Origin: a virus
Virus record (IMG/VR): IMGVR_UViG_3300021963_000535
Span: 1 to 27,364 of that record
Reading direction: 5' to 3' (one strand)
DNA length: 27,364 bases
The notes beneath the pieces are model-generated. The model was given only the letters and a program-made list of their open reading frames with translations, did not search any database and was not told the origin of the DNA. Both the position numbers and the translations under genes were made by a program. This document shows, one piece after another, positions 2,947-27,364 of the stretch; position 1 is the stretch's first letter; every line of letters begins with the position of its first letter.

Positions 2947-3713
2947 AAATCATAGAACTACTTGATGGCAGCACTTGGGATTTAGAAACCATCAAATCCA
3001 AGATGCACGATGATGACTTTTACTACGGCAACCTGTCAAAGAATGCCCTGTCATCTTCAGCTTGTAAATTATTATTAACCTCACCGAAGACCTACCACTA
3101 CGTTACCAAGTACGGCAGCGAGGATTCTGATGCCTTCTCGGTAGGTAGGCTCGTTCACCTGATGGCTCTTGAGCCGCATCGTGTGGAGGAGTACAACGTG
3201 ATTGAGGTGCAAAGCAAGAACGCAAAGGCGTGGCAGGAAGCAAAAGGCCAACGCAACATCTGCACCCGTAAGGAGATGGATGAAGCACAACGCATTGCTG
3301 ATGCCCTACTTCGCAACGAATACTTTTTGTCAATGATTCAAGGCTGCGAGTTTGAGCAACCAGCAATCGGTATGATAGAAGGGATGCCATTCAGAGCAAA
3401 GGCAGACATCATTGCTGATGGGTTCTTGGCTGACCTAAAGACCACCACTGACCTACGAGCATTCCCTTACTCGGCAAAGAAGTACGGCTACGATGTACAG
3501 GCGTTCATCTACACTCGGTTGTTTGGTGTGCCGATTGACAAGTTCTACTTCATCGCTATTGACAAGGCGAGCTTGGATGTGGGTATCTACTCCATCACTC
3601 CCGAGTTTGTAGCAGAAGGCGAACGCAAAACGCTTGAGGCAATTGAACTGTACAAGCAGTTCTTCATCTTGGGTGAGGACTTGGACTCTTACACCATCTT
3701 CGGAGAGTTATAA
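2943..3713 (+). CDS. RecE/Cas4-like PD-(D/E)XK exonuclease (DUF3799-type)
   Basis: A 256-aa protein. The N-terminal SSSACKLLLTSPKTYHY is typical of this family. SVGRLVHLMALEP carries the G..H element (H72). FRAKADIIADGFLADLKTT gives the catalytic D155 and D164-x-K166, and YDVQAFIYTRLFG carries the Q..Y motif (Q186). The set matches phage and prophage RecE-like 5'-3' exonucleases used in single-strand-annealing recombination. No annealing protein is recognisable in the window; it may lie upstream. The ATG at 2943 overlaps the methyltransferase stop (ATGA), and longer in-frame upstream sequence lies inside that gene. A hairpin follows the stop directly. Confidence 0.85.
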   Translation: MKIIELLDGSTWDLETIKSKMHDDDFYYGNLSKNALSSSACKLLLTSPKTYHYVTKYGSEDSDAFSVGRLVHLMALEPHRVEEYNVIEVQSKNAKAWQEAKGQRNICTRKEMDEAQRIADALLRNEYFLSMIQGCEFEQPAIGMIEGMPFRAKADIIADGFLADLKTTTDLRAFPYSAKKYGYDVQAFIYTRLFGVPIDKFYFIAIDKASLDVGIYSITPEFVAEGERKTLEAIELYKQFFILGEDLDSYTIFGEL

Positions 3714-25336: not shown

Positions 25337-25725
25337 AATTCCTAAAATACGAGTTCACGCCCACTCAATGGGCTACGGCTAAAGCCAAGATTGAAACAAC
25401 GGGTACTGACCCCGAAGGCGAAACCTACACCACTTGGAACTCCGAGCTGGTTACGGCAGTAGTTGAGTTGGGCTACCTCTGCACCGAATGGGGTACCGAT
25501 GAGGAAGGAAACCAAGTTTGCTTGAAGACCTCACCGAAGTACGCAGTAGACATCCTGTGGACAGGTGAGCCTCTTGCTACCTCATTTGCCTCTTACGTTG
25601 TATGGCCTGCTCCTTGTGGGGTTCACATCATCGCTGGATGGGAGCAAGCATACGCAGAGGAATACTGCAAGGCTAACCCCGAAGCAGCATACTGCCAACC
25701 TCCTGTACCTCCTGTTGAGCAATGA
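25333..25725 (+). CDS. Conserved phage protein following the fibre gene
   Basis: A 130-aa protein starting MKFLKYEFTPTQWATAKAKI, continuing with AVVELGYLCTEWGTDEEGNQ and the signature KYAVDILWTGEPLATSFASY with VVWPAPCGVHIIAGWEQAYA. The C-terminus is Cys- and Pro-rich (PEAAYCQPPVPPVEQ). I recognise the KYAVDILW...YVVWPxPCGVHxFAGW pattern as a common hypothetical next to fibres in Bacteroidota phages. It is possibly a fibre chaperone or distal tail part, inferred from position only. It is linked to both neighbours by ATGA overlaps. Confidence 0.65.
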   Translation: MKFLKYEFTPTQWATAKAKIETTGTDPEGETYTTWNSELVTAVVELGYLCTEWGTDEEGNQVCLKTSPKYAVDILWTGEPLATSFASYVVWPAPCGVHIIAGWEQAYAEEYCKANPEAAYCQPPVPPVEQ

Positions 25726-25895
25726 CAAAGGAATCTGCTGATTCGGTAATTACGTCTTGGTCGCTGACAGGCGCAGGGCTGCTTGTAGGCTACGTTCATC
25801 AGGCGTTAGGTCTTTTGGTACTATTGGCATCACTTGCCTACACTTTGTGGAAGTGGCGCAGGGATTGGCTAAAGGAGAAGAATCGTGCTAATTGA
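25722..25895 (+). CDS. 57-aa holin-like membrane protein
   Basis: ATGA overlap with the preceding gene. The product has a polar start (MTKESADSVI), a hydrophobic stretch SLTGAGLLVGYVHQALGLLV running on to LAYTLWKW (two short or one long membrane segment, about residues 13-44), then a basic tail RRDWLKEKNRAN. Small size, membrane segment and basic C-terminus before an endolysin gene fit a holin. It overlaps the next membrane protein by 11 nt, suggesting a pair. Confidence 0.55.
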   Translation: MTKESADSVITSWSLTGAGLLVGYVHQALGLLVLLASLAYTLWKWRRDWLKEKNRAN

Positions 25896-26073
25896 GCGAC
25901 TCTTTAAGAATCCCAAGACCACCATCTTGGGACTTCTTATTATTGGGCTATGCTTTGTGCTTGTCTTCTATGAGCGAGCTACCCTTACGGAGGTATCTGC
26001 GTTCCTGATGGGTGCGTTTGCACTTATGTTTTTAAAAGACCCTAACGATGGCAAAGCAACAGGCGGTAAGTAA
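25885..26073 (+). CDS. 62-aa holin-like membrane protein, GTG start
   Basis: The start is GTG at 25885, giving the 11-nt overlap pattern. The product MLIERLFKNPKTTILGLLII has two hydrophobic segments (about 13-29 and 37-52) separated by YERATLTEVSA, then a polar tail with DPNDGK. I recognise the LFKNPKTT(I/V)LGL...ATLTEV..FL.G..AL.F...P pattern from small phage membrane proteins. A holin or antiholin role is inferred from position. No other start codon fits the membrane segment better. Confidence 0.6.
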   Translation: MLIERLFKNPKTTILGLLIIGLCFVLVFYERATLTEVSAFLMGAFALMFLKDPNDGKATGGK

Positions 26074-26176
26074 GTTCATCAGCAAGAGCAAGAAGCGAGG
26101 CAAGCATTCAAAGAGTGCAAGCAGCAACAAGCGGAGCAAGAACTACAAGAAGCCCTACACAGGTCAGGGTAAATAA
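26048..26176 (+). CDS. 42-aa highly basic microprotein (KSKKRGKHSKS...KNYKKPYTGQGK)
   Basis: The start ATG 26048 lies inside the end of the membrane protein gene (26-nt overlap). The product is Lys/Ser/Arg rich, ending KRSKNYKKPYTGQGK. I recognise this 'KxKKxGxHAKxKxSxxKxSKNYKKxYxGQGR' type of microprotein in many Bacteroidota phages, including crAss-like ones, usually near lysis or structural genes. The composition predicts nucleic acid or membrane binding; the function is unknown. Confidence 0.75.
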   Translation: MAKQQAVSKFISKSKKRGKHSKSASSNKRSKNYKKPYTGQGK

Positions 26177-26189
26177 TTATATTTGGGGT

Positions 26190-26396
26190 ATGAAAACAAG
26201 TTTTGCCACCCTGCTCACCGTAGCATTTATCGTTCTGAAATTGACCAACTACATCACTTGGTCTTGGTTGTGGGTTTTCTCACCGCTTTGGATTTCTGCA
26301 ATTATCGTAGTCATTTTCTTGGGTGCAGCTCTTTTGTTGCAAAGAAAGGAGAAGCGTAAATCAATTGAGCAAATAAAGGAGCGACTCAAGTTGTAA
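26190..26396 (+). CDS. 68-aa membrane protein, WSWLW family (paralogue of the gene at 4221)
   Basis: MKTSFATLLTVAFIVLKLTN, ITWSWLWVFSPLWIS, then a second hydrophobic segment (AIIVVIFLGAALLL) and a charged helical tail QRKEKRKSIEQIKERLKL. Two membrane segments are predicted, with a cytoplasmic basic tail. The LKLT...WSWLWV.SP...S pattern matches the 52-aa protein encoded at 4221-4379. Location in the lysis region next to two holin-like genes suggests a membrane function in lysis or its timing. The start is ATG 26190. The longer in-frame ATG lies in the preceding gene and adds only unlikely residues. Confidence 0.7.
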   Translation: MKTSFATLLTVAFIVLKLTNYITWSWLWVFSPLWISAIIVVIFLGAALLLQRKEKRKSIEQIKERLKL

Positions 26397-26580: not shown

Positions 26581-27009
26581 ATGACCAAGAACTTCACCCT
26601 CGCTGAACTGACCAAAACGTCTACGGGGCTCCCTAACGCTTTACCGAAGCACTTGGAACCCAACCTTCGTGCGCTTGCAGAAAACGTCTTACAACCTGCG
26701 AGAGATGCCTTAGGGCCGTTGCAGGTAACAAGTGCGTACCGCAGTCCTGAAGTGAATCGTAGAGTAGGGGGCGCATCCAAATCGCAGCACGTGCAGGCTC
26801 AAGCGGCTGACCTGAAGTTCAACGGAGGCAATGATGTGTTATTTAAATGGATTGCCCGAAACCTTGAGTACGACCAAATTATTTGGGAGTTTGGGAATGA
26901 TGTGGAGCCTGCTTGGGTTCACGTCAGTTACGTAGAGGGCAAGAACCGAAAACAAAAACTAAAGGCAGTAAAAGTCAATGGCAAAACCAAATACATCCCC
27001 TTTCGATGA
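26581..27009 (+). CDS. Peptidase M15-type endolysin (peptidoglycan peptidase)
   Basis: A 142-aa protein. N-terminal FTLAELTKTSTGLPN is the usual Peptidase_M15_3 entry. VTSAYRSPEVNRRVGGASKS precedes the zinc ligands His70 (SQH) and Asp77 (AAD). The third ligand is His114 in AWVHVSY. All three ligands are present, so it should be an active zinc D-Ala-D-Ala or L-Ala-D-Glu peptidase that cuts peptidoglycan cross-links or stems at lysis. It has no signal peptide, so it depends on the holin-like proteins. The last 32 nt overlap the next microprotein gene. Confidence 0.85.
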   Translation: MTKNFTLAELTKTSTGLPNALPKHLEPNLRALAENVLQPARDALGPLQVTSAYRSPEVNRRVGGASKSQHVQAQAADLKFNGGNDVLFKWIARNLEYDQIIWEFGNDVEPAWVHVSYVEGKNRKQKLKAVKVNGKTKYIPFR

Positions 27010-27091
27010 ATGGCTCAATCAACTTGAGGAAATTGAAACGCCTCCTGCTTGCTCCATTGATGACCCCTCTTGTGATAGCTGCGGGTCTTAA
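26978..27091 (+). CDS. 37-aa Cys-rich microprotein overlapping the endolysin and lipoprotein genes
   Basis: ATG 26978 begins 32 nt before the endolysin stop. The product contains SPFDEWLNQLEEIETPPACS and ends IDDPSCDSCGS. The acidic helix followed by a Cys-rich CSIDxPxCDSCGS tail is a pattern I recognise from small phage proteins in this position. It overlaps the downstream lipoprotein gene by 86 nt in a different frame. Its role is unknown. Confidence 0.55.
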   Translation: MAKPNTSPFDEWLNQLEEIETPPACSIDDPSCDSCGS

Positions 27092-27364
27092 CGGATGCCG
27101 TACTGCTCAACCCATCCTCGAGAGTGTGATTGTTCGGGACACGGTGATTGTCACCGAAACAAAGTACCTGTTGGACACATTGGAGGTGCTAAAGGACACG
27201 ACCATCTACCAAGACAAGGTACGCCTTCAACTCAAGTACATAGACCGAAAGGTCGTGGTTGAGGCTACGTGCTTGCCTGATACCATCCGAGTGACCCAAA
27301 CAAAGGTGGTCACCAAGCAAGAGCCGAAGAAGAATGGATGGAACTTTGATGAGATTGTCTTCAC
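27006..27364 (+). CDS. Spanin-like lipoprotein, truncated at the window edge
   Basis: ATG 27006 overlaps the endolysin stop (ATGA). The product has a basic start (LRKLKRLLL), a hydrophobic core (APLMTPLVIAAG) and LNGC as a lipobox ending at Cys31, which predicts a lipid-anchored signal peptide. The visible mature part is rich in Thr/Val/Asp beta strands (VIVRDTVIVTETKYLLDTLE, TTIYQDKVRLQLKYIDRKVV). That DTVxVTET...DTTIYQD pattern occurs in Bacteroidota phage lysis genes. It fits an outer-membrane-anchored spanin subunit. At least 119 codons are visible. The lipobox has Asn at -2, which is atypical. Confidence 0.65.
   Translation, partial: MNGSINLRKLKRLLLAPLMTPLVIAAGLNGCRTAQPILESVIVRDTVIVTETKYLLDTLEVLKDTTIYQDKVRLQLKYIDRKVVVEATCLPDTIRVTQTKVVTKQEPKKNGWNFDEIVF

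Follow-up and report, generated by a model that had tools for sequence, protein, structure and literature searches.

The late lysis operon of this phage appears to end in four overlapping genes, encoding an endolysin, two small cysteine-rich proteins that we call micro1 and micro2, and a lipoprotein resembling a unimolecular spanin (u-spanin). The overlap is real, and we consider it likely that selection preserves micro1, micro2 and the lipoprotein and that the genes act by the mechanism proposed below. The window, that is, the whole stretch of DNA analyzed, comprises 27,364 nucleotides of a viral record (IMGVR_UViG_3300021963_000535). Comparison with relatives indicates that the signal peptide of the lipoprotein, along with the first half of its mature domain, is written over micro1 and micro2 in the next reading frame. 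Since micro1 is under selection and the cysteine codons of micro2 fix wobble bases of the lipoprotein gene, we regard the entire stretch from 27006 to 27262 as dual-coding. In lysis cassettes, gene overlap is familiar from spanin pairs; at this locus, about 250 bases of a spanin-type gene also encode two microproteins without a visible membrane segment, and both frames appear to be held by selection.

Layout of the overlapping genes

The original prediction had placed the endolysin end at 27009, a 37-aa frame at 26978 to 27091 and the lipoprotein start at 27006, and every one of these coordinates is exact (Table 1). The endolysin frame closes with a TGA stop at 27007 to 27009, and 32 nt at its 3' end are shared with micro1. 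The lipoprotein starts at an ATG (27006 to 27008) and continues through the signal peptide (27006 to 27095) to the lipobox Cys codon (27096 to 27098); its gene is truncated where the viral record ends, before the C-terminus. The ATG of micro2 lies three bases past the micro1 stop. No inverted repeats were found near the junction.

Table 1. Features of the lysis region and the overlapping genes in the window
Feature	Position	Strand	Basis
Small membrane protein, holin candidate	25722..25895	+	Inferred from sequence and place
Small membrane protein, holin candidate	25885..26073	+	phrog_5595 match (function unknown); role inferred
68-aa membrane protein, Tmemb_185A-like	26190..26396	+	PF10269 above cut-off
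Endolysin, Peptidase_M15_3 type, 142 aa	26581..27009	+	Pfam PF08291 E 8.5e-19; PHROG endolysin phrog_894 E 8.4e-33
micro1, 37-aa Cys-rich microprotein without hydrophobic segment	26978..27091	+	ORF from ATG to TAA, frame 2; selection; standalone homologues
u-spanin-like lipoprotein, incomplete at window end	27006..27364	+	Frame 3; complete relatives with C-terminal hydrophobic helix
Dual-coding stretch, lipoprotein (frame 3) over micro1 then micro2 (frame 2)	27006..27262	+	Four-fold-site divergence, pN/pS and wobble tests
micro2, 55-aa Cys/His-rich microprotein	27095..27262	+	Same frame as micro1; stop avoidance and fixed wobble bases

Relatives were taken from IMG/VR, 80 being fetched first with the lipoprotein as the query and more being added later. 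The main set holds 135 distinct loci, one of 136 having been dropped because it had no Cys codon. Ratios of pN/pS were calculated from 104 representatives of a single length class (111 of the 130 loci that were classed), and four-fold sites were compared in 65 representatives of 79 loci. A divergent clade contributed 34 loci, after 2 of 36 were dropped for different spacing. Counts across loci are not statistically independent because the sequences are related, and a tree-based count of changes and the second clade serve as safeguards.

The contact with the endolysin varies with endolysin type

The endolysin is exchanged among relatives: of the 130 loci that were typed, 108 carry the M15 type and 22 an amidase (the Amidase_2 assignment having been checked by Pfam for two of the 22), and micro1 and the lipoprotein are retained. 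Where M15 is replaced by Amidase_2 (L010, L018, L023 and the other amidase-type loci), the junction of the swap lies at the micro1 N-terminus. This end of micro1 tracks the endolysin type, reading FDxWL in 107 M15 loci, with the truncated L065 as the sole exception, and LxDFIN in the 22 amidase loci. The start codon of micro1 is ATG in M15 loci, and in amidase loci it is TTG in 20 and ATG in 2.

The distance from the endolysin stop to the first lipoprotein ATG was −1 in 3, +2 in 73, +14 in 31 and +649 in 1 of the 108 M15-type loci; in the 22 amidase-type loci it was +27 in 21 and +15 in 1, and there the lipoprotein lies in the same frame as the endolysin. The prediction that all three frames are used at 27006 to 27009 holds for the window but not as a general feature, as relatives with an amidase endolysin lack the contact. 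Comparison of the loci thus indicates that the three-frame contact is a local detail of M15-type loci. The spacing of +649 stems from an insertion in L098 (3347 to 3970), where a GIY-YIG/NUMOD homing-endonuclease gene (Pfam E 1.1e-6, PHROGs E 3.8e-16) separates the endolysin from micro1 and overlaps the endolysin end; the block of micro1, micro2 and lipoprotein is intact.

micro1 is conserved beneath a drifting signal peptide

The original prediction located the lipoprotein signal peptide within the stretch that encodes the microprotein, and indeed only the last four bases of the signal peptide lie outside micro1. The micro1 stop falls at the same place, seven bases ahead of the codon for the lipobox Cys, in 133 of the 134 loci covering it (L118 being the one locus of 135 that does not). 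The micro1 motif is retained in 131 of the 133 loci that cover it, the exceptions being L065, in which micro1 is not intact and the lipoprotein is retained, and L214, which has lost one Cys. The L065 lipoprotein gene (3061 to 3468) encodes its own short signal peptide next to a truncated micro1. The micro1 motif is present in L099 and the stop is lost, giving a single 93-aa micro1-micro2 frame (1623 to 1904).

We rejected an open micro1 frame as sole evidence for a gene: random synonymous recoding of the lipoprotein in 132 loci left the frame open in 62% of cases, and openness is therefore weak evidence. The motif C-x(4-12)-C-x-S-C, on the other hand, arose in 0.2% of such recodings (132 loci). 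At four-fold sites of the lipoprotein gene, divergence was 6.5% in the overlap versus 44.7% downstream. Over the shared bases, pN/pS was 0.33 in the micro1 frame and 2.34 in the lipoprotein frame; the mature lipoprotein gave 0.22, and the third frame gave 1.47 and had stops in all 104 representatives. The substitution pattern therefore identifies micro1 as the conserved frame, over which the signal peptide drifts, and indicates that micro1 is a genuine protein gene under selection.

The substitution pattern, together with the standalone copies of micro1 described next, bears out the claim of the original prediction that 27010 to 27091 codes for two proteins. Two kinds of relatives had been named as contrary evidence. 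A micro1 frame closed in relatives was encountered as a truncation in L065 only, 1 of the 133 covering loci. Relatives with a later lipoprotein start do exist, but the start still lies within the micro1 frame, and the overlap therefore stands.

micro1 also occurs apart from the lipoprotein

A search with the DNA pattern for DNPxCDSCG matched 72 viral stretches and nothing in the genome collection. Among 198 distinct micro1 sites, 192 lie under a lipoprotein frame, five do not (L423, L441, L468, L483 and L449) and one (L500) is cut by the contig end; the motif search leaves out the exceptions L065, L099 and L214 by construction. Four further records (L477, L492, L499 and L450) are extra records of standalone micro1 sequences, and L445 is the record of L423 itself. 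The standalone genes resemble the window micro1 in the W-[LV] segment and in the ending CxxDNPxCDSCGS, the latter being the search criterion, and differ from it in overlapping no lipoprotein gene.

In L423, micro1 (1925 to 2026) lies about 0.9 kb after the lysis genes and near the terminase gene, and its stop shares bases with the start of a GroES-like gene. A GroES-like gene (phrog_13932) follows micro1 in both L423 and L441, and the bases after the micro1 stop in L468 and L483 are identical to those in L423 and L441. The L423 lipoprotein belongs to the same family (47% identity), has its own short signal peptide and follows directly after an amidase-like endolysin; its gene has stops in the micro2 frame. 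The fifth copy (L449, 5101 to 5274) encodes a 57-aa micro1 with a longer N-terminus, starts within the 3' end of a phage endonuclease I gene and has an HNH gene upstream. Since standalone copies exist, and in L423 stand separate from the lipoprotein, micro1 is best described as an independent small gene, one that on this comparison does not depend on the lipoprotein overlap. As for the order of states, the lipoprotein presumably came to be overprinted on micro1. Because in the outgroup L423 the two are uncoupled, with a lipoprotein of this family free of the overlap and the microprotein encoded elsewhere, the locus would be a clean natural case of overprinting.

One might instead take micro1 for a mere leader whose translation tunes lipoprotein synthesis, as could be suggested by the lipoprotein start lying within the micro1 frame in loci covering the start, and by the start-stop contacts that M15-type loci show with the endolysin. 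We regard this as quite improbable: the amino acids of micro1 are conserved, not just its translation, and the standalone copies overlap no lipoprotein.

A second microprotein extends the dual coding to 27262

The dual coding that the original prediction described for 27010 to 27091 is real but incomplete, since it extends to 27262 by way of micro2, a second microprotein that had not been listed. The micro2 frame contained no stops in the 135 distinct loci, against 2.3 to 2.8 expected per locus from recoding. This avoidance was seen neither in the late part of the same lipoprotein gene (1.84 stops observed versus 1.4 to 1.6 expected) nor in the same phase of 24 window genes (499 observed versus 451 expected). 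From the Cys codon to the micro2 stop, lipoprotein codons standing before AA, AG or GA never end in T.

Individual wobble positions were likewise fixed. At the codons overlapping micro2 Y3, C4, C11, C13 and C19, the lipoprotein wobble base was T in 135 of 135 loci. The lipoprotein residue itself varies at Y3 (A/R/N), C4 (T/S/G) and C13 (I/V/T), whereas at C11 it is always Ser and at C19 nearly always Ile. Wobble changes counted on a tree of 133 sequences had a median of 6 per degenerate codon for the 54 codons inside micro2 versus 23 for the 21 codons beyond it (Mann-Whitney p 2.7e-4), and codons with zero changes occurred only inside micro2. In the divergent clade, four of the same T bases and the C for Pro8 were fixed in 34 of 34 loci, and each locus had exactly one Cys at micro2 position 18 or 19 (18 and 16 loci, respectively). 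The Cys/His core of micro2 was kept in 190 of the 192 overlapping sites found by the micro1 motif; Cys4 is missing from L101 and a core Gly from L102. At all 188 distinct micro2-core sites, the lipoprotein frame lies over micro2.

Averaged over all codons, the micro2 frame had a pN/pS of 1.52, as for a non-coding frame, and the constraint became visible only in the site-by-site tests. We had read the frame as non-coding from this average, a reading overturned by stop avoidance and wobble tests in two clades. If micro1 were the only gene and the micro2 frame open by an accident of lipoprotein codon choice, the average ratio and the lack of a family match for micro2 would follow naturally. Such an accident is nevertheless very improbable, as stop avoidance is missing later in the gene and in the 24 window genes, wobble bases at the Cys, His and Pro codons are fixed in both clades, and the outgroup L423 has stops in this frame despite sharing the lipoprotein family. 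Moreover, the wobble base changes often, 23 and 25 times, at lipoprotein codons 36 and 48, where the usual substitutions leave micro2 Leu38 and Arg50 as they are. Both the open frame and the residues kept against the overlapping gene thus mark micro2 as a gene, and the comparison indicates that micro2 is a selected protein frame. Its set of Cys and His residues looks like a metal site.

Given that micro1 and micro2 share a single frame, are both Cys-rich and form one 93-aa frame in L099, which has no intervening stop, they could be parts of one protein made by readthrough of a TAG or TAA that sets the ratio of the short to the long form. That they are one protein is unlikely. Standalone micro1 ends at the same CDSCGS-stop with unrelated sequence beyond, and both stops are in use (TAG in 175 loci, TAA in 17). 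In addition, the base before TG of the micro2 start was A in 93, T in 91, G in 8 and C in none of 192 loci, which a start codon requires and a sense codon does not; C is absent at this position even though Gly and Ser are most often encoded by GGC and AGC in 19 window genes. We therefore treat micro1 and micro2 as two genes; the micro2 start directly abuts the micro1 stop in 2 of the 192 loci.

Neither micro1 nor micro2 had a significant match in PHROGs, Pfam or phage genomes. As two microprotein families without an hmmscan match in PHROGs or Pfam, they are likely to be missed by gene callers averse to overlaps.

The lipoprotein has the layout of a unimolecular spanin

A hydrophobic signal and a lipobox Cys are present in the window (LNGC) and in relatives. 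A hydrophobic stretch of 18 residues starting 22 to 27 residues from the C-terminus was found in all 184 complete relatives (Kyte-Doolittle mean at least 1.57, average 2.12); these overlapping relatives were selected for a Cys codon in the lipobox position, and the set is thus no test of that Cys. The helix also appears in an AF2 model of the lipoprotein, although this model is poor (pLDDT 49); with pLDDT values of 49 and 66, the structure models did not have the quality needed for a fold search. All 184 complete lipoproteins carry one periplasmic Cys. There was no significant match to a spanin family in PHROGs or Pfam and none in the phage collection, and 16 pattern matches in the genome collection included no confirmed relative.

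According to a spanin survey, u-spanins, with phage T1 gp11 as the prototype, combine an N-terminal lipobox, a C-terminal membrane helix and a place in the lysis cassette, all of which the lipoprotein shares (PMC6139136). From this layout and its position we infer that it functions as a unimolecular spanin. It departs from the known examples in three respects: an invariant periplasmic Cys in the relatives tested, a gene lying over two microprotein genes and the lack of a family match. In the same survey, all 58 u-spanins lack a periplasmic Cys, a shared trait of the surveyed proteins rather than part of the definition (PMC6139136). The lipoprotein would thus represent a spanin-like family whose periplasmic cysteine is invariant, a directly testable trait. 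A 2025 survey states that Bacteroidetes phages use unimolecular spanins only (PMC12596118).

In embedded or overlapped Rz/Rz1 spanins, the lipoprotein gene likewise lies over a second lysis-cassette gene in a different frame, and overlapping frames beside an endolysin are typical of them. It is nonetheless barely credible that the outer-membrane lipoprotein belongs to a two-component spanin of this kind with micro1 or micro2 as its inner-membrane partner. Such a topology is contradicted by inspection of the alignments, which revealed no hydrophobic segment in either microprotein, and a C-terminal helix is already present in the lipoprotein family itself. The original prediction was thus right in not counting the microprotein as a classical inner-membrane spanin; its framing in terms of a spanin pair becomes unneeded, because complete relatives of the lipoprotein have both the C-terminal helix and the lipobox Cys. 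Among the matches listed in our literature search, no title or abstract start described a spanin-type gene overlapping soluble microproteins, which is not proof of absence.

Proposed mechanism and a possible origin of micro1

In the mechanism that we favor, ribosomes ending micro1 would restart three bases on, at the conserved NTG, to translate micro2, and translation of the lipoprotein would begin independently inside micro1. The lipoprotein would be exported and lipidated at the lipobox Cys; its lipid would then anchor it in the outer membrane and its C-terminal helix in the inner one, so that it could fuse both membranes after the endolysin has cut the wall. micro1 and micro2 might perhaps remain cytosolic as thiol proteins.

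The end of micro1, C-[SN]-[IV]-D-[ND]-P-x-C-x-S-C-G-S, resembles the C-terminal redox tail of the class Ia ribonucleotide reductase NrdA, as seen in the NrdA of phage MD-2021a (ACSIDNPDCEACQ) and in the chain of PDB 5im3, which ends in ACSIDNPDCEAC plus one residue and which we take to be from Pseudomonas aeruginosa. The matches were not significant (E 3.8 and 1.1); the position of the Cys pair, at the very C-terminus of a tail containing DNP, agrees. Unlike the NrdA tail, micro1 is free-standing, without a reductase body. An NrdA-tail query matched in 3 records only. The NrdA domain PF02867 was not found in 14 related records whose completeness is unknown, and a thioredoxin-like match was present in 1 of the 14. 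As the match is not significant and the search of these 14 records found no reductase domain, we treat it as a lead only. Neither the micro1 nor the NrdA-tail motif spellings matched in the literature searched.

A C-terminal cysteine pair of the NrdA-tail kind is reduced by redoxins (PMC5704485). The resemblance suggests a thiol function for micro1, and the endonuclease I neighbor in L449 would fit a role in nucleotide supply. Taken further, micro1 could be a phage-borne, free-standing copy of the NrdA redox tail acting on host redoxins or the host reductase, which in this phage group was captured between endolysin and spanin, with the spanin signal peptide then overprinted on it and micro2 arising over the periplasmic domain. 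We find this sequence of events rather doubtful; if it were true, about 285 bases would serve three proteins.

Probable host and candidate lysis genes upstream

The best 15 of 1453 terminase matches were, by name, to Parabacteroides, Bacteroides and Flavobacterium phages, and a 573-aa protein taken as the tape measure matched only Nonlabens and Bacteroides phages (6 records). Because both proteins match phages of this group, the host is probably a member of the Bacteroidota. Upstream of the endolysin, the first of the two candidate holins (25722 to 25895) had no PHROGs or Pfam match above the cut-off. The Tmemb_185A-type protein had matches in 464 phage records. A very basic protein of 42 to 43 aa is kept in the lysis region of the window (26048 to 26173), L010 (4258 to 4386), L018 (651 to 782) and L423 (92 to 220).
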